Part shown: positions 12,738-63,287 of the stretch, one piece after another
Layout: every line of letters starts with the position of its first letter
Numbering within the stretch: the first letter of the stretch is position 1
Source: Sialis fuliginosa
Taxonomy: Eukaryota; Arthropoda; Insecta; Megaloptera; Sialidae
Length of the DNA stretch: 64,000 nt
Reading direction: 5' to 3'
NCBI GenBank assembly: GCA_961205875.1
Contig: OY540811.1
Location: forward strand, 34,999,340-35,063,339
The notes under the pieces: generated by a model
Told to the model about the DNA's origin: nothing
The model's input: only the letters and a program-made list of their open reading frames with translations
Database searches by the model: none
Position numbers and translations under genes: made by a program

Positions 12738-13640
12738 TTGCGGCTAAAACCCGAAGTGCGGCTAGAACTACATAGGTGTGAAATCTCGATATCAGTTTTT
12801 GGTTTGATGTTTATGTAAATAATTATACATCTGCTTGTAGATATGCTGAAATGCATGCTCGAATATTGATGTTCTTTTGTATGGATATCTTTAATGTGGG
12901 GCTTATAAACTATAGTTTAAAAAATATGCGTTACTTTTTATTATTTCAAATTAAAACATTTTCGCGTCAATGAAAATGTAGTATTGTTATGTACTATTTT
13001 ATTATGTTATAAATTTTATGTATATCACTTGTTTTATTTATTTAATATTATTCTACAAAACACCGTTTTTCTGTTTGAAGAGAAGTTTGCTGACTGTCCC
13101 AGTGGCGTAGTAAGAAAAATTTTCAGGGGGGGGGGGTAAATACATGAGTTAAATTTTTTGAAGGTATTTTGAACTAATGTTTTTTCAAAACATACGTTTT
13201 TTTAGGAACACTGAATATTTAGGAGGGGGGGGGGGGTCGTCTCCATTTTTCTTACTACGCCAGTCAGCAAAAAAAAACGCAGAAATTTTTTAATTTGATA
13301 TAATAAAAAGTAACGCATATTTTTTAAACTACAGTTTATAAGCCCCACATTCAATAAATCCATACAAAAAAACATATATTCAAGCATATCTACCATCAAA
13401 TGTATACTATTCATAAACATCAACCCAAAAACTGATATCGAGATTCCACACCTAGTTCTAGCCGATAACAGTTGGCTACAGCTTGTTCTAGCCGATAACA
13501 GTTGGCTACACCTTGTTCTAGCCGAATACAATCGGCTACACCTAGTTTTAGCCGAATATAATCGGCTACACCTAGTTCTAGCCAACTGTTATCGGCTAGA
13601 ACTAGGTGTAGCCGCACTTTGGGTTTTAGCCGTAACATAT
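12738..13640. mobile_element. Inverted-repeat element with CTAGAACTAGG modules
   Basis: The left end GCGGCTAAAACCCGAAGTGC and the right end GCACTTTGGGTTTTAGCCG are inverse. Next to the right end are five to six modules built from TAGTTCTAGCCGATAACAG and GGCTACACCTAGTT, each itself nearly palindromic. The outer arms also share GATATCAGTTTTTGG and ATTGATGTTCTTTTG-type blocks. A second member lies at 62838-63130. The minus-strand open frame here simply translates these modules. No recognised transposase. Confidence 0.65.
13099..13266. mobile_element. Short TIR element with CAGTGGCGTAGTAAG end
   Basis: CAGTGGCGTAGTAAGAAAAA on the left and TTTTTCTTACTACGCCA on the right are inverted. G-runs (10 and 11 Gs) lie just inside. 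The same end occurs at 52435 and in the 81-bp element at 57189-57269, which has a clean 8-bp duplication; here no duplication is visible. hAT-like by comparison. It is nested in the element 12738-13640. Confidence 0.65.
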
Positions 13641-26120: not shown

Positions 26121-28415
26121 AAAATTATATAAAAGATTTCTTCCTAGCTTTCATGTCTGCAAAATTTTCGATTGCTGTCTCAAGATTGAAGTTTACTACA
26201 ACTTTATTTTCAATTGAAAGAATAGCCAAATTATTCAACCTATCTTCTATCATAATAAGTTTTTATCAATTTTAATTTACTAAAACTTCTTTCACCACTA
26301 GCTACACTAACCGGAATTGTTACAAGAATCCGCAAAGCCACCCACAGATTTGGCACTGTGCTATTCAAGTTATTGTCATTTATAAAGTTCAAACATTTTA
26401 AAGGGTTATTTGCATCATATGGTATTAACTGCTTCAATGATTCGATTTCCTCGCACAACTCGATTCCATTTATATCACTGCTTGCCTCATCAGTTAATCT
26501 TATGTGTAAGTCTTTGCAATTCTTCAGCAGCTCATTACGATTTGTATTATTTTTAATATTGAACAAAAAGCCCCACGACTCTTCTAAATCTTTCATTTGT
26601 TGAAACCTTTCGGATATAGACACCAACGACTGATCCAGCCTAACATTAAAACAGTGATTTTTGTAATATTTTTCTGGATCATTTGCATCAGGAACTTCAT
26701 CATCACACTCATATGTAAATTGTTTCTTTCGTCGTCTGGTCCTTATAGTTTTAAATTGTGTCGATTATATAAGTCTTTGAGAACACATACAAACTGTTGT
26801 ACAAAAATTAAGGTTTTACAAATACTTTTATTGTTAATCAAAGACAAGCATGATTCCATTATTAACAATTTAATAAAACAAAAACAGTTGATGATATCAG
26901 ATCCTAATTTTCAGTGAATGTTCTGTAACTACAGAATGTTTATTTTCCAGAGGTATCAACTTTAAAAACATTAAACTTTATTAGTTATTACAGCTTAAAA
27001 AAGTGTGATTTCAGTCATTTTAATCAGCGTAGCGGATAAACAAATGAATTTTTTTATTTAAAAAAAAAATGGAGGTTGTAGGGAATTTTGTAGCGTATAA
27101 CGTTTATTAAAATCTTTTTTTTTGTATAATACTTATTTAGACCGCTATTTAGCAAAACTCAGAAAATCTGAAGAATTTTGCAATTGAACCATGGATAACT
27201 CCTGTCGCGGACAACCAAAATCGGAGCAAACTTAGGGTATTATTCTACACCACTTTTGTAACATATCCTGTAAGTATTAAAACTGTACGCAAAAAGAATT
27301 GGTTTTAGCCTCCACAGCCTGGACTATTTTGCATAGATTTGCCGACAATATTAAATTTTGACAAAAGGCTGTGCCAAACAAATAATGTTACTAAAAACTC
27401 AAAATTTTCGATTTTTTCAGCCAAAGAACTTGCTTCCGAAACAACTGCACTAACTGCAGCATCTAATTTTTGGTCCTCCAACTCATTTAATGCATTTCTA
27501 ATTTCAGTTCTTTCAAACATTATTGTTTTAATACATTCGATTCTACATTCCCACCTTGTTTCACTTAATGGTTTTGGATTTAATGATTTAACATGCTTTT
27601 TTAATATACTCCATCTTCCAACAGATGCAGCAAATAAAGTATAAATTCGTTGAACAATCCCGAAAAAATTGATAAACATAATTGAAGAAGAAACGCTATC
27701 ACCAATTAGTAAATTAATTTAATGACATCCGCAAGGCATAAAAAACGCGCGTGGATTTTCTTTTAAGATCCTAGCTTGCACACCTTTATTTTTACCTTTC
27801 ATATTAGCGCCGTTATCATAGCCTTGGCCTCTACAATTTGCTATTTCCAAATTAAATTCTTTTAAATTTGCCATAATAATATCATATAATCCTTTTCCAG
27901 TAGAATCAAAAACTGGTTTTAATGACAAAAAATGTTCTTTTATCTCCATATCCTGAACATCATAAAATCTTTAAGTTATGGAAAGCTGTTCTATATGGCT
28001 TATATCAGGTGTGCAGTCTAAATAATAGAGAAATACTTCGATTTACGAGCACAATCCAAAATATGGCTTCTTGTCATATCTCCAAATGTAGTTATTAATT
28101 CGTTTTGAATAGTTTTTCCACAGTAATGAATATGAATTTCTTGTGAGACTACCTTGCGCAAATGCTCATTTAATGTTAAATCAAATTTTCCTAAAAGTTC
28201 AACAAGACCGAGAAAATTCCCATTATGTGGAACAAATAATTTATCACAAGACCCACGAAATACCAAATTATTTTTTGCTAGAAATAATGTTATATTTATT
28301 AATATTTCTAGCACATTTTTCCAATTGTGTTTTTCTTGGGAAATCAAAGATTGTAAATTTTTATCAATTGTAGTTTTATTTTTATTATATCTTAATCTTG
28401 TCTCTATTCAATTTT
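26120..28415 (-). pseudogene. ZMYM1/DUF4371-type hAT transposase relic
   Basis: Broken hAT transposase read on the minus strand. From 28415 down: a segment with IDKNLQSLISQEKHNW and FRGSCDKLF (DUF4371 start), GLYDIIMANLKEF with CRGQGYDNGANMKG and FFMPCGCH, then AASVGRWSILKKHVK and LSETRWECRIE with the start of the RNase-H-like C part. Coding resumes at about 26760 (RTRRRKKQFTYECDDE), continues to the hAT dimerisation region (NLWVALRILVTIPVSVAS, GERSFSKLKLIK) and, after a frameshift near 26245, RLNNLAILSIE. The DNA-binding N terminus is missing, several frame breaks occur, and 26930-27335 is an unrelated insertion. Not functional. Confidence 0.85.
26930..27335. repeat. Dispersed repeat inserted in the hAT relic
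   Basis: This block interrupts the hAT reading frame after NIVGKSMQ. It begins near TTTTAATCAGCGTAGCGGA, which recurs at 44240, and ends with a module around CAGCCTGGACTA that recurs at 46585-46700 and, more diverged, at 3490-3600. The same two modules flank a large inverted structure at 44-46.7 kb. Exact ends and a target duplication were not resolved. Confidence 0.5.
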
Positions 28416-34075: not shown

Positions 34076-34780
34076 AGGTACATATGTTTTTTGAAATGTT
34101 TGTAGATTTCAATAATTCTATTAAGTATGAAACTGTCTAGATTAATATTTTCTATTCTTCTACTTTACCGGGTGTTTTTTTAAAGACTTTCCAGCGGATT
34201 ACATATTTCTAATATAATGAATTTTCAGAAAAAATGTTTCAGACAAAAGTTTCATGGTTTTAAGGGGGCTAAATATTGACAATATGGATAAACCTTAAAA
34301 AGATCACCTTAATGGGTTTTCAGGTTCAACTTTTCTTTTTTAAATCTAAACCTGTCTTTTTTTTATTGCAGATTCGTAATTTACGAGGAAAAATAAACAA
34401 CTTTTACTTGAAACATTTTTTCTGAAATATGATATGGAGCAAAACAAAAAGACATTTCTGGATATTCAAATTTTTTTACTCGAAAACTATACATTTTTTA
34501 GAAAAATCACAAGAGTAAAAAAGTACTTAAATTTAATCAAGAATTCTCAGAGAATTTTTTTTATACAAATTTAATATTAATTTTTTATGCAACTTTTTAA
34601 TAGGGTAAATTTTTTGTAATTTTGAAGAAAAAAATTAAAAACAAATAAAATAAAAATCTCTGAGAATCATTGTCTAAATCTAAGCACTTTTTACCTCTTA
34701 TGATTATTTTTGAAAATTAATAGTTTTCGAGTAAAAAATTATTGAAAATCCAATAATTTCTCTTCATCATAAAAAATGTT

Positions 34781-37700
34781 ACCTGTGTGAAGTTAGCACC
34801 GCAAGTTTCGAAAAATAAAAAATAAAATAGAGTTCCGGAGAGCACTCAAAGAGTTCTGGAGTTCTTTTATATTTTGAAAAAGAGTTCTGTCAATTTAATC
34901 CCCCAAAAACGTTTTTTCAAAATGGGGTGCTAACTTCACGCAGCACCGCAAACTCAAAAAATTCAATTTATTTTTAGAGTTCTAAAGAGCACTCAAAGAG
35001 TTCTGGAGTTTTCTTATATTTTTAAAAAGAGTTCTGGCAATTGAACCCCCCAAAAACGGGTTTTGAAAATACAGTTTTAAAATTACACAGAACAGCAATC
35101 ACGAACAAACAATACTTTTTTGGGATAACACTGCATGTGCTGAGGAGTTCCCGTAAGTTAAAAAATAGTTCTATCAATTTAAACACCCCCTCCCCACGAA
35201 AAAAAAATAATTTACAAAAACAGTATACTTTCGGCATTGACATAATTTCACTATTGTAATTTCTGTTTAGAGTTCTGTATAGCACTCTTGAAAATAAATA
35301 TATTTTCTCATTAACCCTTTCCTGACAAACGAACATATAAAAAAATAGTCAAATAATTAATATTTCAAAATTATTTTTTTTAAATTTCCATAAAGTTTTG
35401 AGATTTCTGTTTAGAGTTCTGAATAGCACTCAAGAGAATGAACATAAAAACTCCTTAACCCTTTCCTGACAAACGAACATATAAAAAAATATTGAAATTA
35501 TTAATATTTCAAAATTATTAAAAAAATATAACTTTAAAGTTTTGAGATTTATATTTAGAGTTCTGAATAGCACTCTTGAGAATGAACAAATTTTCCCATT
35601 AACCTTTTCCTGGCAAACGAACAAATAAATAGTTATTCAATTTATTAACATTTCAAAATTATTTAAAAAATATTTCTTTAAAGTTATGAGATTTCTGTTT
35701 AGAGTTCTGAATAGCACTCATAAAAATGAACAAATTCGCTCTTAACCCTTTCCTGGCAAACGAACAAATAAATAGTTATTCAATTTATTAATATTTCAAA
35801 ATTATTAAAAAAATATAACATTAAAGTTTTGAGATTTATATTTAGAGTTCTGAATAGCACTCTTGAGAATGAACAAATTTGCTCCTTAACCCTTTCCTGA
35901 CAAACGAACATATAAAAAATATTCAAATTATTAATATTTCAAAATTATTAAAAAAATATAACATTAAAGTTTTGAGATTTCTATTTAGAGTTCTGAATAG
36001 AACTCTTGAGAATGAACAAATTTTCTCATTAACCCTTTCCTGACAAACGAACATATAAAAAAATAGTCAAATAATTAATATTTCAAAAATATTTTTTTTT
36101 AATTTCCATAAAGTTTTGAGATTTCTGTTTAGAGTTCTGAATAGCACTCAAGAGAATGAACATAAAAATTCCTTAACCCTTTCCTGACAAACGAACATGT
36201 AAAAAAATATTCACATTATTAATATTTCAAAATTATTAAAAAAATATAACTTTAAAGTTTTGAGATTTCTATTTAGAGTTCTGAATAGCACTCTTGAGAA
36301 TGAACAAATTTTCCCATTAACCTTTTCCTGGCAAACGAACAAATAAATAGTTATTCAATTTATTAATATTTCAAAATTATTTAAAAAATATTTCTTTAAA
36401 GTTCTGAGATTTCTATTTAGAGTTCTGAATAGAACTCTTGAGAATGAACAAATTTTCTCATTAACCCTTTCCTGGCAAACGAATAGATCAAAACTTATTC
36501 AATTTATTAATAGTTCAAAATTATTAAAAAATATTTCAATAAAGTTTTGAGATTTCTGTTTAGAGTTCTGAATAGCACTCCTGAAAATGAACAAATTTTG
36601 AAATATTAATAATTTGAATAACTTTTATTTGTTCGTTTTTATTTAAAAAATATTTCTTTAAAGTTCTGAGATTTCTATTTAGAGTTCTGAATAGAACTCT
36701 TGAGAATGAACAAATTTTCTCATTAACCCTTTCCTGGCAAACGAATAGATAAAAACTTATTCAAATTATTAATATTTCAAAATTATTAAAAAATATTTCT
36801 TTAAAGTTCTGAGATTTTTGTTTAGAGTTCTGAATAGCACTCTTGAGAATAAAAAAATTCGCTCATTAACTCTTTCCTGGCAAACGAACAAATAAAAACA
36901 TATTCAATTTATTAATATTTCAAAATTATTAAAAAATATTTCAATAAAGTTTTGAGATTTCTATTTAAAGTTCTGAATAGCACTCTTGAGAATGAACAAA
37001 TTTGCTCATTAACCCTTTCCTGACAATCGAACATATAGAAAATATTCAAATTATTAATATTTCAAAATTATTAAAAAAATATAACTTTAAAGTTTTGAGA
37101 TTTCTATTTAGAGTTCTGAATAGCACTCTTGAGAATGAACAAAATTTTCCCATTATCCTTTTCCTGGCAAACGAACAAATAAATAGTTATTCAATTTATT
37201 AATATTTCAAAATTATTTAAAAAATATTTCTTTAAAGTTCTGAGATTTCTGTTTAGAGTTCTGAATAGCAATCTTGAAAATACACATAATAACTTGTTAA
37301 CTCTTTCCTTGCAAACGAATAGATAAAAACTTATTCAATTTATTAATATTTCTAAATTATTAAAAAATATTTCAATAGAGTTTTGAGATTTCTGTTTAGA
37401 GTTCTGAATAGCACTCATGAAAATACACATAATAACTTATTAACTCTTTCCTGGCAAACGAACCAATAAAAAGTTATTCAAATTATTAATATTTCAAAAT
37501 TATTTAAAAAATATTTCCTTAAAGTTTTGAGATTTCTGTTTAGAGTTCTGAATAGCACTCTTAAGAATGTCAAATTTGCTCATTAAGCCTTTCCTGGCAA
37601 ACGAATAGATAAAAACTTATTCAATTTATTAATATTTCAAAATTATTAAAAAAATATTTCAATAAAGTTTTGAGATTTCTGTTTAGAGTTCTGAATAGCA

Positions 37701-39705
37701 ATCTTGAAAATACACATAATAACTTGTTAACTCTTTCCTGGCAAACAAACAAATAAAAGTTATTCAAATTATTAATATTTCAAAATTTGTTCATTTTCAG
37801 GAGTGCTATTCAGAACTCTAAACAGAAATCTCAAAACTTTATTAAAATATTTTTAAATAATTTTGAAATATTAATAAATTGAATAAGTTTTTATTTATTC
37901 GTTTGTCAGGGAAGATTTAATGAGTAATTATGTTCATTTTCAAGAGTGCTATTCAGAACTCTAAACAGAAATCTCAGAACTTTAAAGAAATATTTTTTTA
38001 ATAACTTTGAAATATTAATAATTTGAATAAGTTTTTATTTGTTCGTTTGCCAGGAAAGGGTTAATGAGCGAATTTGTTCATTCTCATGAGTGCTATTCAG
38101 AACTCTAAACAGAAATCTCAGAACTTTAAAGAAATATTTTTTAAATAATTTTGAAATATTAATAAATTGAATAACTATTTATTTGTTTGTTTGCCAGGAA
38201 AAGGATAATGGGAAAATTTGTTCATTCTCAAGAGTGCTATTCAGAACGCTAAATAGAAATCTCAAAACTTTAAAGTTATATTTTTTTAATAATTTTGAAA
38301 TATTAATAATTTGAATATTTTCTATATGTTCGATTGTCAGGAAAGGGTTAATGTACAAATTTGTTCATTCTCAAGAGTGCTATTCAGAACTCTAAATAGA
38401 AATCTCAAAACTTTATTGAAATATTTTTTAATAATTTTGAAATATTAATAAATTGAATAAGTTTTTATTTGTTCGTTTGCCAGGAAAGAGTCAATGAGCG
38501 AATTTTTTTATTCTCAAGAGTGCTATTCAGAACTTTAAACAAAAATCTCAGAACTTTAAAGAAATATTTTTTAATAATTTTTAAATATTAATAATATGAA
38601 TAAGTTTTTATCTATTCGTTTGCCAGGAAAGGGTTAATGAGAAAATTTGTTCATTCTCAAGAGTTCTATTCAGAACTCTAAATAGAAATCTCAGAACTTT
38701 AAAGAAATATTTTTTAAATAAAAACGAACAAATAAAAGTTATTCAAATTATTAATATTTCAAAATTTGTTCATTTTCAGGAGTGCTATTCAGAACTCTAA
38801 ACAGAAATCTCAAAACTTTATTGAAATATTTTTTAATAATTTTGAACTATTAATAAATTGAATAAGTTTTGATCTATTCGTTTGCCAGGAAAGGGTTAAT
38901 GAGAAAATTTGTTCATTCTCAAGAGTTCTATTCAGAACTCTAAATAGAAATCTCAGAACTTTAAAGAAATATTTTTTAAATAATTTTGAAATATTAATAA
39001 ATTGAATAACTATTTATTTGTTCGTTTGCCAGGAAAAGGTTAAAGAGTTTTTATGTTCATTCTCTTGAGTGCTATTCAGAACTCTAAACAGAAATCTCAA
39101 AACTTTATGGAAATTATTGAAATATTAATTATTTGATTATTTTTTTATATGTTCGTTTGTCAGGAAAGGGTTAATGAGAAAATATGTTTATTTTCAAGAG
39201 TGCTATACAGAACTCTAAACAGAAATTACAATAGTGAAATTATGTCAATGCCGAAAGTATACTGTTTTTGTAAATTATTTTTTTTTTCGTGGGGAGGGGG
39301 TGTTTAAATTGATAGAACTATTTTTTAACTTACGGGAACTCCTCAGCACATGCAGTGTTATCCCAAAAAAGTATTGTTTGTTCGTGATTGCTGTTCTGTG
39401 TAATTTTAAAACTGTATTTTCAAAACCCGTTTTTGGGGGGTTCAATTGCCAGAATTCTTTTTAAAAATATAAGAGAACTCCAGAACTCTTTGAGTGCTCT
39501 TTAGAACTCTAAAAATAAATTGAATTTTTTGAGTTTGCGGTGCTGCGTGAAGTTAGCACACCATTTTGAAAAAACGTTTTTGGGGGGTTCAATTGACAGA
39601 ACTCTTTTTCAAAATATAAAAGAACTCCAGAACTCTTTGAGTGCTCTCCGGAACTCTATTTTATTTTTTATTTTTCGAAACTTGCGGTGCTAACCTCACA
39701 CAGGT
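34781..39705. mobile_element. Giant foldback element (4925 bp), 9-bp TSD AAAAATGTT
   Basis: The ends ACCTGTGTGAAGTTAGCACC and (inverted right) ACCTGTGTGAGGTTAGCACC continue into almost identical terminal segments of about 480 bp with two subterminal copies of an AGCACTCAAAGAGTTCTGGA block. Then each arm is a tandem array of about 143-bp units, left array forward, right array reversed. AAAAATGTT stands directly outside both ends (34772-34780, 39706-39714). No transposase-like frame; the longest open frames are mirror images of the terminal segment. Architecture and 9-bp duplication match Drosophila FB elements; a Mutator-type origin is also possible. It lies in carrier intron 1. Confidence 0.85.
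35265..39230. repeat. Tandem array of about 143-bp units, two opposed arms
   Basis: The marker GAGTTCTGAATAGCACTC recurs about 18 times from 35270 to 37690 at 140-150-bp steps, and its inverse about 11 times from 37800 to 39200. Other unit landmarks are TTTGAGATTTCTGTTTAGAG, TTAACCCTTTCCTGGCAAAC and TTATTAATATTTCAAAATTA. Units differ by a few bases and small indels. Orientation flips at about 37790 (centre), and a short inverted half-unit occurs at 36598-36640 and, in mirror position, at 38718-38770. Confidence 0.9.
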
Positions 39706-39913
39706 AAAAATGTTTCAGGTAAAAGTTGCTTATTTTTACTCGTACATTACAAATCTGCAACAAAAAATATAGATTTAGATTTAAAAAAGAAAAGTTGAAC
39801 CTGAAAACATATTGAGGTGACCTTTTCAAGGTCAACCCATATTGTCAGTATTGAGCCCCCTCGAAACCATGAAACATTTTCTCTAAAAAAAGTATTTAAA
39901 AAAACATCCGGTA

Positions 39914-49737: not shown

Positions 49738-50560
49738 ACATCTGCCAAGTAAATGCACAGTGCTTCCTCGTGCTAAATTCACTAAAACCGATAGTGTTCA
49801 GATAAATTGCCTGGCATAACCATTTAATTTTTATACAAATTTTACTACAAAATCTTAGTTCGAAATTTTTCTTAAAACGCTCCTGAATATTTTTTCATAT
49901 ATTTTTAATTTTTGACAATTTCAATCTAAATCAAAATTTATGCAAATGTCAAAATGACATTTTAAACGTCAAAGTGACATTTAAAACGCCAAAGTGACAT
50001 TTAAAATGTCAAAATGACATTTAATATATCCAATCAAATATCAATTTAGAAAAACAAAACACGAATTTTAAAAATAAATTGACATAAATCTTTGTAAGGG
50101 AATATTTTACAACAAACGTAGTAGACCCATATTATAGGAAATTTAATGCTCTACAAAAAATATTCCATAAAATTTTCTCGTAACATGTGTCGTTCTTGAG
50201 ATATCTTGAAAAAAGAAATATTTTGGAGTGTCACCTCTCCCCCTTACACACGATTTTGATGATTTTGAAATGGGACCGTCCTCAAACCAAACCCAACCAT
50301 CCGACCAAGTTTCAATAATATCGGTTCAGTGGTTCATGAGTTATGCGTGTGACAAGGATTCAGGGGACAGACGGACGGACGGACGGACGGATGGACGGAC
50401 GGACACACGAACAGACAGACAGACACGGAACGAAAAGTGTTTGTCTTGACGTGAAACGGATAAATCAATTTAAAATTTTGAAATTGGAGAACTTTTTTTT
50501 TGTCTCAATCTGAAACGATCACATAGCTTCTCGTATCTTCGATATTGCGAGGAAGCAAAA
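49738..50560 (+). mobile_element. GCTTCCTCG-ended dispersed element, copy 2
   Basis: Full-length by comparison with copy 3: starts CATCTGCCAAGTAAATGCAC, ends CTTCGATATTGCGAGGAAGC, flanked by A-rich sequence. It contains the 18-20-bp tandem repeat at 49944-50030, the ACACGATTTTGATGATTTT block and a GGAC run. The open frame it carries is shared with copy 3 but ends in the GGAC run and is not protein-like. Confidence 0.75.
49944..50030 (+). repeat. 18-bp minisatellite (also 51388-51472)
   Basis: Four to five units of GTCAAAATGACATTTAAAAC type, with AAAGTGACATTTAAAACG variants. The same array occupies the equivalent position in copy 3. Copies at 15350 and 47560 have only one or two units. Confidence 0.8.
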
Positions 50561-51176: not shown

Positions 51177-51995
51177 ATCTGCCAAGTAAATGCACAGTGC
51201 TTCCTCGTGCTAAATTCACTAAAACCGATTGTGTTCAGATAAATTGCCTGGCATTGGTTAACCATTTAATTTTTATACAAATTTTACTAAAAAATCTTAG
51301 TTCGAATTTTTTCTTAAAACGCACCTGAATATTTTTTCATATATTTTTAATTTTTTGACAATTTCAATCTAAATCTAAATTTATGCAAATGTCAAAATGA
51401 CATTTAAAACGTCAAAGTGACATTTAAAACGCCAAAGTGACATTTAAAACGTCAAAATGACACTTAATATATCCAATCAAATATCAATTTAGAAAAACAA
51501 AACACGAATTTTTAAAATTAATTTAGATAAATCTTTGTAAGGGAATATTTTACAACAAACGTAGTAAACCCATATTATAGGAAATTTAATTCTCTACAAA
51601 AAATATTCTATAAAATTTTCTCGTAACATGTGTCGTTCTTGAGATATCTTGAAAAAATAAATATTTTGGGGTGTCACCCCTCCCCCTTACACACGATTTT
51701 GATGATTTTGAAATGGGACCGTCCTCAAACCAAACCCAACCATCCGACCAAGTTTCAATAATATCGGTTCAGTGGTTCATGAGTTATGCGTGTGACAAGG
51801 ATTCAGGGGACAGACGGACGGACGGACGGACGGACGGACACACGGACAGACAGACAGACACGGAACGAAAAGTGTTTGTCTTGACGTGAAACGGATAAAT
51901 AAATTTAAAATTTTGAAATTGGAGAACTTTTTTTTTGACTCAATCTGAAACGATCACATAGCTTCTCGTATCTTCGATATTGCGAGGAAGCAAAA
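51177..51995 (+). mobile_element. GCTTCCTCG-ended dispersed element, copy 3
   Basis: Almost the same sequence as copy 2, in the same orientation, separated by a 615-bp spacer (50561-51176) that has no repeat I recognise. Tandem copies of one family in one insertion suggest either two insertions or one composite transfer with its spacer. Confidence 0.75.
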
Positions 51996-52744: not shown

Positions 52745-53500
52745 ATTGAATATTAATTATAATTAAGAAGAATTTATAATTAGTATTTTCCAATAAAAAC
52801 TGTATAAAAAAAACACCATTAAACAATGACAGTAATGACATTGATGTAGTTAAACTGAAAATGTTTATACGAATATTTTAATCAGGCACGTATTAAGAAG
52901 GGTTTATAATTAGAAAATTTTCCGATAAAAGTTCTATAAAAATGAAAAAATATTAAGTAATTGTAGTAATGCCTATGATGTAACTAAACAAAAAATGTAT
53001 ATGAATATTTAAGTCAGGAACGTATTAAGAAGAATTTACAATTAGTATTTTCTCATAAACTTTGTTTAAAAATGAAAATGTTAACCAATGGAAGTTGTTA
53101 TATCTATGTAATTAAACTAATAATGTATATTGAATATTTAAGTCAGGCACGTATTAAATAGAATTTATAATTAATTTTTTCCAATAAAAACTGTATAAAA
53201 CGAAACCATTCAGCAATAAGTTTTGGTATTAATGTAGTTAATACGAAAATGTATATATTAATATTTTAGTCAGGTACGTATTAAGAAGAATGTATAATCA
53301 GAAAATTTTCCGATAAAAATTCTATAAAAATGAAAATATTAAGTAATTTCATGTTACTAAACCACAAAAGTATATGAATATTTAAGTCAGGCACGTATTA
53401 AGGAGAATTTATAATTAATTTTTTCTCACAAAAAATGTATAAACATGAAAATGCTTACAAAAGAAGGATGATATTGATCTAAATGAACCAAATATACATA
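52745..53500. repeat. Tandem array of about 125-130-bp units
   Basis: The marker GTCAGGCACGTATTAAGAAG (with variants) occurs at about 52883, 53013, 53143, 53268 and 53386, followed each time by an AATTTATAATTA-type block and GTATATGAATATT. Five to six diverged units. 52435-52744 before it holds a CAGTGGCGTAG end and A+T-rich sequence. Confidence 0.75.
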
Positions 53501-53529: not shown

Positions 53530-54010
53530 CCTTTAACGGTGGGGTAGATAGGGGTTTTATGCAATTATTAACTAAGATCCGAGATATTTACGATTTTTTA
53601 TAGGTAATGAATTAAAATAAAAACTTGTTTTTTCATCCCCTGCCACGTATGGAGGGTTGTAATTAGTTTCATTCGATCTGGCGGGAAAAATACTTCGGGG
53701 TAGAGGGTTCTAAAAAATCAATCCCCTATCTCGCATAGGAGCCGAGATATTTACGATTTTTTATAATTAATAAAAATTTAATATTTCATCCCCTGTCACG
53801 CATAGAAGGTTGTTATTAGTTTAATTCGATTCGGCGGGAAAAATACTTCAGGATGGGGGGTTCTAGGGGAAAAAACAACCCCCTATCTCGCATAGGAATC
53901 GAGATATTTACGATTTTGTATAATTAATAAAAAAAAAATATGTAATATTCCATCGCCTGTCACGCATAGAGGATTGTAATTAGTTTCATTTGATCCATGA
54001 TATTTATGAT
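53530..54010. repeat. Tandem array of about 175-bp units
   Basis: TTCATCCCCTGTCACGCATA and GGCGGGAAAAATACTTC recur at 53634, 53790 and 53950 (last partial), with CCGAGATATTTACGATTTT between. About two and a half units, unrelated to the array just to the left. Confidence 0.7.
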
Positions 54011-58884: not shown

Positions 58885-59393
58885 TTAAAAAGAGTTAGCA
58901 ACGATATTTCTTTTTTCATTAGCTTCCTGGTTGAATTCTTCTTCTACAACATTATCTGCCTCATCAATGTTGAATTCTTCATCTTCAAAATTAACGTCAT
59001 TTTGGTTTATTATAAAATTATGCAAGATGCAACAAGCTGTTATCATCTTATTGCCTAGTTGAAAATCAGTAATATCGAGGTACTTCAGTCTACGAAATTT
59101 GACTTTCAAAAGACCAAATGCCCTTTCAATAATTGATCTAATAGAGTTGAATTTTCTATTATACAGCCTTTGTGCAGGTGTTAGATGGCCATTATCACGA
59201 AATGGTGTCAATACATTTTTCTGTAGTGGATACGCAGAGTCACCAATTATGTGCATGTTCCCCGGCAAGAGTGGAATTTCTTCATTGTTCAGTCGATGAA
59301 AAATGGGACTATTCCGAAAAACCCTTGCGTAATGCATTCGCCCTGGCATTCCAACAAAAACATCGATAAAACATGCTCGATGATCACAAACAC
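58885..59393 (-). CDS. HARBI1-like PIF/Harbinger nuclease, 3' exon
   Basis: Open last exon of a DDE_Tnp_4-type (PIF/Harbinger) nuclease; stop codon at 58885-58887. In order: VCDHRACFIDVFVGMPG, RVFRNSPIF, the catalytic-Asp block IIGDSAYPL, the catalytic-Glu block SIIERAFGLLKVKFRRL, then CCILHNFII and an acidic tail (NFEDEEFNIDEADNVVEEE). The acceptor TTGTAG|GT (59395-59394) restores a Gly codon with the exon at 59456-59516. The usual HD of PGSxHDxR is HY here (MPGRMHYARVF), so activity is doubtful, although the frame is unbroken over about 170 codons. It could be a TE copy or a domesticated gene. Confidence 0.85.
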
Positions 59394-59455
59394 CTACAAT
59401 AAAATGATTTTATTAATATGTTATACATATAAAGTTACATAAAATAATATAATAC

Positions 59456-62741: not shown

Positions 62742-63287
62742 CAGGCCTGCACAACATACAGCCACCTTGCGGTTCGTGAAGAGTTTGGTGAAAATTCATA
62801 ATATTATAAATTAAAAATAATATTCCCTAGCTTATTGTTACGGTTAAAACCCAAAATGCGGCTAGAACTAGTTCTAGCTGATAACAGTTGGCTAAAACTA
62901 GGTGTAGCCGATTATATTCGGCTAGAACTAGGTGTAGCCAATTGTTATCGGCTAGAACTAGGTGTGGAATCTCGATATCAGTTTTTGGGTTGATGTTTAT
63001 GAATAGTATACATTTGCTGGTAGATATGCCTGAATATTGATGTTCTTTTGTATGGATGTTATCGGCTAGAACTAGGTGTAACCAGCTACACCTAGTTCTA
63101 GTCGCACTTTGGGTTTTATCCTTAACATAACATATATACAGAATATAATATAAATATTTATTTAATTTTTAAATAATTAAATAATATTATTATTTTCATA
63201 ATAACTTTCCTCCCTATTTTTTTCGGCCCGCACAAGTTTTTCATTAAGTATTACGGCTGATTTTACATTTTGAGTTGTGCAGGCCTG
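62742..63287. mobile_element. hAT-type MITE (546 bp), 8-bp TSD TCCTAAAG
   Basis: CAGGCCTGCACAAC and its inverse GTTGTGCAGGCCTG are exact 14-bp terminal inverted repeats. TCCTAAAG flanks exactly (62734-62741, 63288-63295). It contains an insertion at about 62838-63130 related to the CTAGAACTAGG element. Confidence 0.92.
62838..63130. mobile_element. CTAGAACTAGG-module element, second copy
   Basis: TTACGGTTAAAACCCAAAAT at the left and CACTTTGGGTTTTATCCTTA at the right are inverted. Inside are four or more GGCTAGAACTAGGTGTAGCC-type modules alternating orientation and the GATATCAGTTTTTGGGTTG block seen at 12790 and 13420. It is nested in the hAT MITE. Confidence 0.7.

Follow-up and report, generated by a model that had tools for sequence, protein, structure and literature searches.

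Foldback elements of the Drosophila FB / FB-NOF kind have long inverted arms made of tandem repeats, produce a 9-bp target duplication and, in their longest form, carry a gene in the loop between the arms; their repeat units are short, approximately 10-31 bp. The target duplications of Galileo and P are 7 bp and 8 bp, respectively. We analyzed a 64,000-nucleotide stretch of the megalopteran insect Sialis fuliginosa (assembly GCA_961205875.1, contig OY540811.1, positions 34,999,340 to 35,063,339 of the forward strand), referred to here as the window, in which a reading of the sequence alone had proposed a giant FB-like foldback element. The element occupies window positions 34781-39705 and is probably a non-autonomous cut-and-paste foldback DNA transposon of the Mutator-like element (MULE) type, closest in build to Rehavkus.

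MULEs are described as making target duplications of 8-11 bp (PMC6446971). The Rehavkus elements, few in number and described mainly in Repbase, are reported to duplicate 9 bp of target and to carry a minisatellite ahead of the 3' inverted end (PMC6446971), and Rehavkus-1_TC of Tribolium castaneum is given as a 9.5-kb element whose inverted termini contain a 164-bp unit, mostly as five and eight monomers (PMC10218199). Tetris of Drosophila virilis consists of a flanking domain, tandem units of about 220 bp and a middle part, with 8-10-bp duplications; part of the unit sequence recurs in the flanking domain and, by the same account, no transposase is known for Tetris (PMC4079207). Tm1 of Meloidogyne is described as a Mutator/foldback element with variable tandem repeats in its ends and mostly 9-bp duplications (PMC3169594). 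A 2026 survey of 4,268 arthropod genomes reports MULEs of 1.4-10.0 kb with inverted ends of up to 1,193 bp and transposases of up to 1,136 amino acids, having used conservative screening with Rehavkus as outgroup only (PMC13359780).

The element in the window is 4,925 bp long, inverted, with ACCTGTGTG at both ends, and is flanked exactly by AAAAATGTT, which forms the 9-bp target duplications at 34772-34780 and 39706-39714 (both given on the forward strand). These outer limits, 34772-39714, are to the base those that the sequence-only reading had drawn. Almost the whole element is made of two mirror-image arrays of a 143/144-bp unit. A profile built from the left-array units of the window itself counts, partial end units included, 18 units in the left array (35267-37787, forward strand; the last is partial and one is a 117-bp hybrid) and 11 in the right array (37784-39219, reverse strand; the first is partial), the same numbers as had been estimated from the letters for units of about 143 bp, and Tandem Repeats Finder recovered the same two arrays. 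Each array is preceded by an outer flanking domain of approximately 486 bp that starts with ACCTGTGTGAAGTTAGCACCGC, the left one at 34781-35266 on the forward strand and the right one, its inverse and different at 1 of 22 bases, at 39220-39705 on the reverse strand. The terminal inverted repeats, which had been called near-identical, are 97% complementary over the 450 nt of outer domain compared (34771-35220 with 39266-39715), and within the arrays the longest mirrored stretch measures 898 nt (98%). The two arms join head to head at 37784-37787 without a loop. The hybrid unit is present in both arms (36560-36676, forward strand; 38684-38800, reverse strand), with a profile score of 37.7 bits in each, and contains an inverted piece that resembles, by eye, the central junction; its mirrored presence suggests copying from arm to arm. 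The GC content of the window is 23-39% in 2-kb steps.

The insertion splits an abundant palindromic repeat of this genome. The right arm of this host palindrome (approximately 39706-39890, reverse strand) carries the element, and the left arm (approximately 34230-34435, forward strand) keeps the uninterrupted target at about 34400-34430, as had been noticed from the sequence. We searched the genome assembly (392 Mb in 20 contigs; genome-wide counts here and below are lower bounds, as the best candidates were scored) with a 380-base query that joined the two flanks around one copy of the target. Among the best 40 of 1,533 candidates scored, 71 matches were listed. Of these, 59 span the junction at 73-89% identity, 58 outside the window and one in the window's own partner arm; spanning was judged from coordinates, such that small gaps at the junction are possible in single matches, and both arms of a palindrome were counted, such that 59 matches are not 59 separate loci. 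The remaining matches are the two halves of the window repeat, which end at the junction, and 10 partial pieces. The uninterrupted copies and the partner arm therefore establish an insertion with a 9-bp duplication. Chance identity of two 9-mers was seen in 11 of 200,000 random pairs within the window.

Element bases 2-152, used as a query against the same genome, gave at least 71 matches at approximately 29 places, and further copies with the same termini thus exist, as the sequence-only reading had expected. We looked closely at 19 of these places (the window and 18 fetched stretches), with the other ten, among them the short loci L025, L027 and L030, known from search matches. Ten two-ended elements of this family, here family 1, were found among the places examined: the window element, L034 to L041 and a 22,906-bp element on C3. 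The 9-bp duplication is exact in eight of the ten (the window and L034-L040) and matches at 8 of 9 positions in L041. Numbers of forward and reverse units differ from element to element: 18 and 11 in the window, 10 and 7 in L034, 9 and 8 in both L035 and L037, 14 and 5 in L036, 7 and 2 in L038, 12 and 13 in L039, 1 and 3 in L040, 3 and 4 in L041, and 99 and 26 in the C3 element. The other fetched copies are single ends, including two right ends on C13 with nearly equal flanking sequence. In an observation of its own, a family-1 element lacking its right end is present in at least four copies with a common left flank at C14:3112000-3181800 (L042-L045); the copies are approximately 97% alike across at least 9.7 kb and represent a segmental duplication. 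A query with the array unit gave 210 matches, and among the listed ones checked all lie at such termini or at the gene described below, except C3:19567789, whose context was left unchecked.

The central junctions of the gene-less copies fall into more than one type. One is common to L034, L036 and L037, another to the window, L038 and L039, and L035 and L040 each have their own; L041 stood outside this comparison. This pattern of two shared and two distinct single junctions led us to reject a single origin; copies without the gene seem to have arisen on more than one occasion, and their unit numbers to have drifted later. Identity between the left and right arms over their first 470 bases is 98.1-99.8% in eight of ten elements (85.2% in L040 and 89.3% in L041), and identity between arms of different elements averages 94.5% (180 pairs, the diverged L040 and L041 included), with some pairs at 100%.

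One 143/144-bp unit contains one copy of the motif GAGTTCTGAATAGCACTC. Every unit in the window has it with at most 1 mismatch, and it is also found near both termini. Allowing up to 3 mismatches, all 33 sites in the window lie inside the element in a mirrored arrangement, 20 forward in the left half (34830-37703) and 13 reverse in the right half (37801-39656), where 0.04 would be expected in shuffled sequence, the sites within an array being related by descent and not independent. Each of the 29 units accounts for one site, and each outer domain for two diverged copies, which lie 50 and 197 bp from the element end. When the first unit is aligned without gaps to the terminal domain, its best match contains the motif and beats 200 of 200 shuffles. 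In a comparison of 233 units, of which up to 125 belong to the C3 copy, TTTAGAGTTCTGAATAGCACTC ranks among the top two stretches for conservation. In Galileo, repeated sites in the long ends bind transposase, as tested by gel shift (PMC3688188), and because of this precedent we infer that GAGTTCTGAATAGCACTC may be a transposase-binding site.

A transposase-like gene lies between the opposed arrays of the C3 element. Genome searches with each half of this gene found several diverged relatives, of which two have long open frames, measured stop to stop: 1,190 codons at C1:7589253-7592822 and 1,174 codons at C8:4641358-4644879. These define a family 2, whose protein is 32-42% identical to that of family 1. 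The C8 gene is flanked by opposed arrays of a 164-165-bp unit, and the C1 gene has an array on the one side that was fetched. The outer terminus of family 2, ACGTCTGTGAACTTAGCATC, differs from that of the window element, ACCTGTGTGAAGTTAGCACC, while resembling it. A 184-base query with the family-2 terminus gave at least 25 matches. Five pairs among them have both termini, and all five are flanked by exact 9-bp duplications; three opposed pairs lacking at least one terminus (on C11, C14 and C7) are outside this count. Two of the five are gene-bearing elements, one of 16.8 kb at C8:4638804-4655618 (duplication GTTGAACGA) and one of 14.7 kb at C1:7586216-7600942 (CGCTTCAAC); the other three are known from their termini, at C12:1517237-1524384 (TATGGTTTC), C6:439809-446977 (ATGATTTCT) and C1:21529933-21538348 (TTATACTTC). 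A third lineage (L058, C14:3352110-3353039) has 145- and 283-bp tandem repeats beside its gene on the one side seen. No such array was found within the stretches examined at three further relatives (L053, L059 and L060), and a single scan of viral contigs for relatives gave 11 pattern matches, none of them confirmed.

The central part of the protein was aligned in five relatives, where D, D and E motifs line up. A D-A/S-T-G stretch is kept in all four sequences that reach it, and for family 1 the other open half contains DASGG. All five keep a V-x-D-F/Y stretch and R-x-D-x-x-H, and the E (VEAE or SEAY) is present in all three relatives that reach that position. Pfam matches came from aligned parts only and all were sub-threshold. 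For this region MULE PF10551 was matched by two of five members at E<=10, the best being a relative on C6 (6.3e-4, 20.6 bits, below the cut-off of 27.6), and a comparison of the DDE region with solved structures gave two irrelevant matches (E 0.1 and 2.9).

The C-terminal part of the protein is likely a ubiquitin-specific protease (USP)-like domain with putative deubiquitinase activity. UCH PF00443 was matched by two of four members, one from each family (1.5e-4, 21.9 bits for family 1; 0.001, 19.2 bits for family 2; both below the cut-off of 23.9), the other two members being short pieces without the His region. A four-member profile of this part searched against PDB at E<=10 gave 13 sequences, all of them deubiquitinases, with USP15 the best at E 0.0017. 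The alignment runs from a C-x-x-C to an HYxAY...W..xDD box, the His/Asp region aligns, and all four members share TCAFD, which we read by eye as the Cys box. A literature search that covered sources other than Repbase reports yielded no account of a transposase of this kind with a USP domain, and a deubiquitinase-like domain in this setting may be absent from print. Helitrons have been described with VTD and OTU domains (PMC9741609).

The anatomy, the duplications, the uninterrupted host copies, the shared junctions and the gene-bearing relatives are the observations behind the MULE-type foldback reading, and the following sequence of events would fit them. A transposase made elsewhere would bind the GAGTTCTGAATAGCACTC sites along both arms, pair the two ends and cut at ACCTGTGTG; insertion would occur at a 9-bp staggered cut, with repair making the duplication. 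Gene-bearing relatives hold the transposase-like gene in a loop between opposed arrays, and short copies may have arisen by loss of this gene loop, which would join the arrays head to head. Unit number would then shift by unequal exchange or slippage, and the arms would partly correct each other. That mobilization depends on a transposase encoded elsewhere had already been proposed from the sequence; the helper is presumed, as before, and family 2 now supplies gene-bearing copies with exact duplications, but the gene of the element's own family is broken.

Several results weigh against this reading. The only long family-1 gene found, that of the C3 element, is split between two open frames that overlap, 379 and 731 codons long, with the break in a TTTATTTG-like stretch. 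A further family-1 copy with the gene, on C13, has decayed; because both gene copies found are broken, the family-1 helper may be extinct or unseen. The C3 element is the longer, transposase-carrying member that the sequence-only reading had suggested looking for, but besides its broken frame it has no target duplication, and its flanks (L031/L033, C3:35824788-35848193) match two different repeats. No match among the 81 listed for the joined C3 site crosses that site by more than 2 bases. It was thus not accepted as a plain single insertion, and may be a rearranged or composite locus. No Pfam family was detected in the family-1 halves, in the DDE part of family 2 alone or, in an insensitive scan at E<=5, in the whole 1,181-residue family-2 protein, and the MULE match comes from diverged relatives. 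Across array units TTATTAATATTTCAAAATTA is slightly more conserved than the proposed binding motif. The best match between the first unit and the family-2 unit is this proposed motif, in diverged form in the latter, and it beats 395 of 400 shuffles, but the other 5 match the family-2 unit equally well, the best of them scoring 33.2 against 23.9. A clean signal of concerted evolution was sought and found in part only: in a tree the two arms are sisters in five of the ten elements (the window, L035, L038, the C3 element and the long-branched L040), and correction between arms appears to be partial at best.

The genes between the arrays could instead be passengers, with the true transposase elsewhere. 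The sub-threshold Pfam similarity, present in relatives only, and the broken family-1 gene agree with this; however, a homologous gene occupies the same place in two families that have different termini and whose proteins are only 32-42% identical, and its D, D and E positions are conserved, making passengers unlikely. Even less probable is a foldback of the P superfamily, similar to Galileo, with long internally repeated ends and a THAP-domain transposase. Tandem repeats with transposase-binding sites are likewise a feature of Galileo ends, and no THAP match was found in a scan that returned no Pfam family for the whole proteins, a blank that a diverged THAP domain would equally produce. The duplications here are 9 bp, not the 7 or 8 bp of Galileo and P, and the proteins between the arrays have D, D and E motifs, with weak MULE similarity in relatives. 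Growth of a satellite or inverted-repeat array in place, by inverted duplication of a local tandem repeat and without any transposon, would suit an element made almost wholly of tandem units, but it is refuted by the eight loci, window included, at which these termini recur with an exact 9-bp duplication, together with the uninterrupted host copies, and the checked unit matches, apart from the one at C3:19567789, sit at termini or at the gene. A collapsed or falsely mirrored tandem array is a conceivable artefact, as the evidence is the assembly itself and the window holds other palindromes, but it is very unlikely because seven other places show the termini with an exact 9-bp duplication (and an eighth with 8 of 9 bases), opposed arrays with differing unit numbers stand at nine other loci and a second family has the same plan at C8.

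Set beside the described systems, the 9-bp duplications of eight of ten family-1 and all five family-2 elements fall within the MULE range. The elements share with Rehavkus the 9-bp duplications, satellite-like repeats in or next to the inverted ends and a putatively MULE-related transposase, and the 164-165-bp unit of family 2 compares with 164 bp in Rehavkus-1_TC. They differ in the far longer arms of some copies (99 and 26 units; elements of 14.7-22.9 kb), in the gene-less head-to-head copies and in the USP-like C-terminal part; Rehavkus, compared here by its description, not its sequence, also has a reported PHD finger, whereas none was detected by the insensitive Pfam scan of the family-2 protein. 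The foldback plan of Tetris is found here too, including a unit that shares a motif with the flanking domain, but the present elements have gene-bearing relatives. In D. virilis the unit also forms free satellite arrays, of which none was noticed here among the matches listed from the 210 found. Tm1 differs by its 13-15-bp units and its Phantom-type transposase with a FLYWCH domain, and Galileo, similar in repeating binding sites in long ends, by its P-superfamily transposase. With FB the element shares opposed tandem-repeat arms and the 9-bp duplication (the comparison being of build and not of the NOF protein), so that the initial label of FB-like holds for the plan, but not for the unit, which at 143-144 bp is far longer than FB units. 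The suggestion that the family might be undescribed can likewise stand for this particular family only, since Tetris and Rehavkus have been described with long-unit arrays in their inverted ends and 8-10-bp duplications. The foldback plan is thus already published, and the window element joins a thinly described kind of foldback and is not wholly new. What is unusual is the extreme lengths, the presence of several families in one genome and the USP-like part. At 14.7 and 16.8 kb, the two family-2 elements with a gene and a duplication are longer than the 10.0-kb maximum given in the arthropod survey (PMC13359780).

Other repeats in the window include a hAT transposase remnant at 26240-26764 (reverse strand), with a match to the PF05699 dimerization region (5.4e-8), adjoined by open reading frames at 27305-27718 and 28018-28407 (reverse strand) without a Pfam match. 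A transposase fragment at 58885-59409 (reverse strand) matches DDE_Tnp_4 (3.6e-27) and is presumably Harbinger-like. The same kind of 30-bp tandem repeat (CTAGTTCTAGCCGA...) is found in opposite orientation at 13448-13614 and 62859-62965. A 20-bp array followed by a GGAC microsatellite occurs in two copies 1,443 bp apart (49944-50404 and 51387-51859), probably by local tandem duplication. Two neighboring arrays, of 129-bp units (52762-53452, 5.4 copies) and of 153-bp units (53616-53996, 2.4 copies), are, by eye, unrelated to the foldback element.

Because the arthropod survey was conservative and used Rehavkus as an outgroup only, elements of this build may have been passed over. In Sialis fuliginosa one genome combines, in at least two families, relatives that carry the gene with exact target duplications and with host copies free of the insertion, and two questions can be tested here: whether end repeats multiply by binding transposase, and whether such arrays seed satellites. 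We propose tentatively, and at somewhat short of even probability, that these elements may belong to a lineage of animal MULE foldbacks with a transposase-USP fusion, whose ends are expandable satellites of binding sites reaching approximately 100 units in one arm. If so, the lineage would supply the type of transposase that is missing for long-unit foldbacks such as Tetris, the deubiquitinase would protect the transposition complex, and a transposon would be a direct source of satellite DNA through selection on the number of binding sites.

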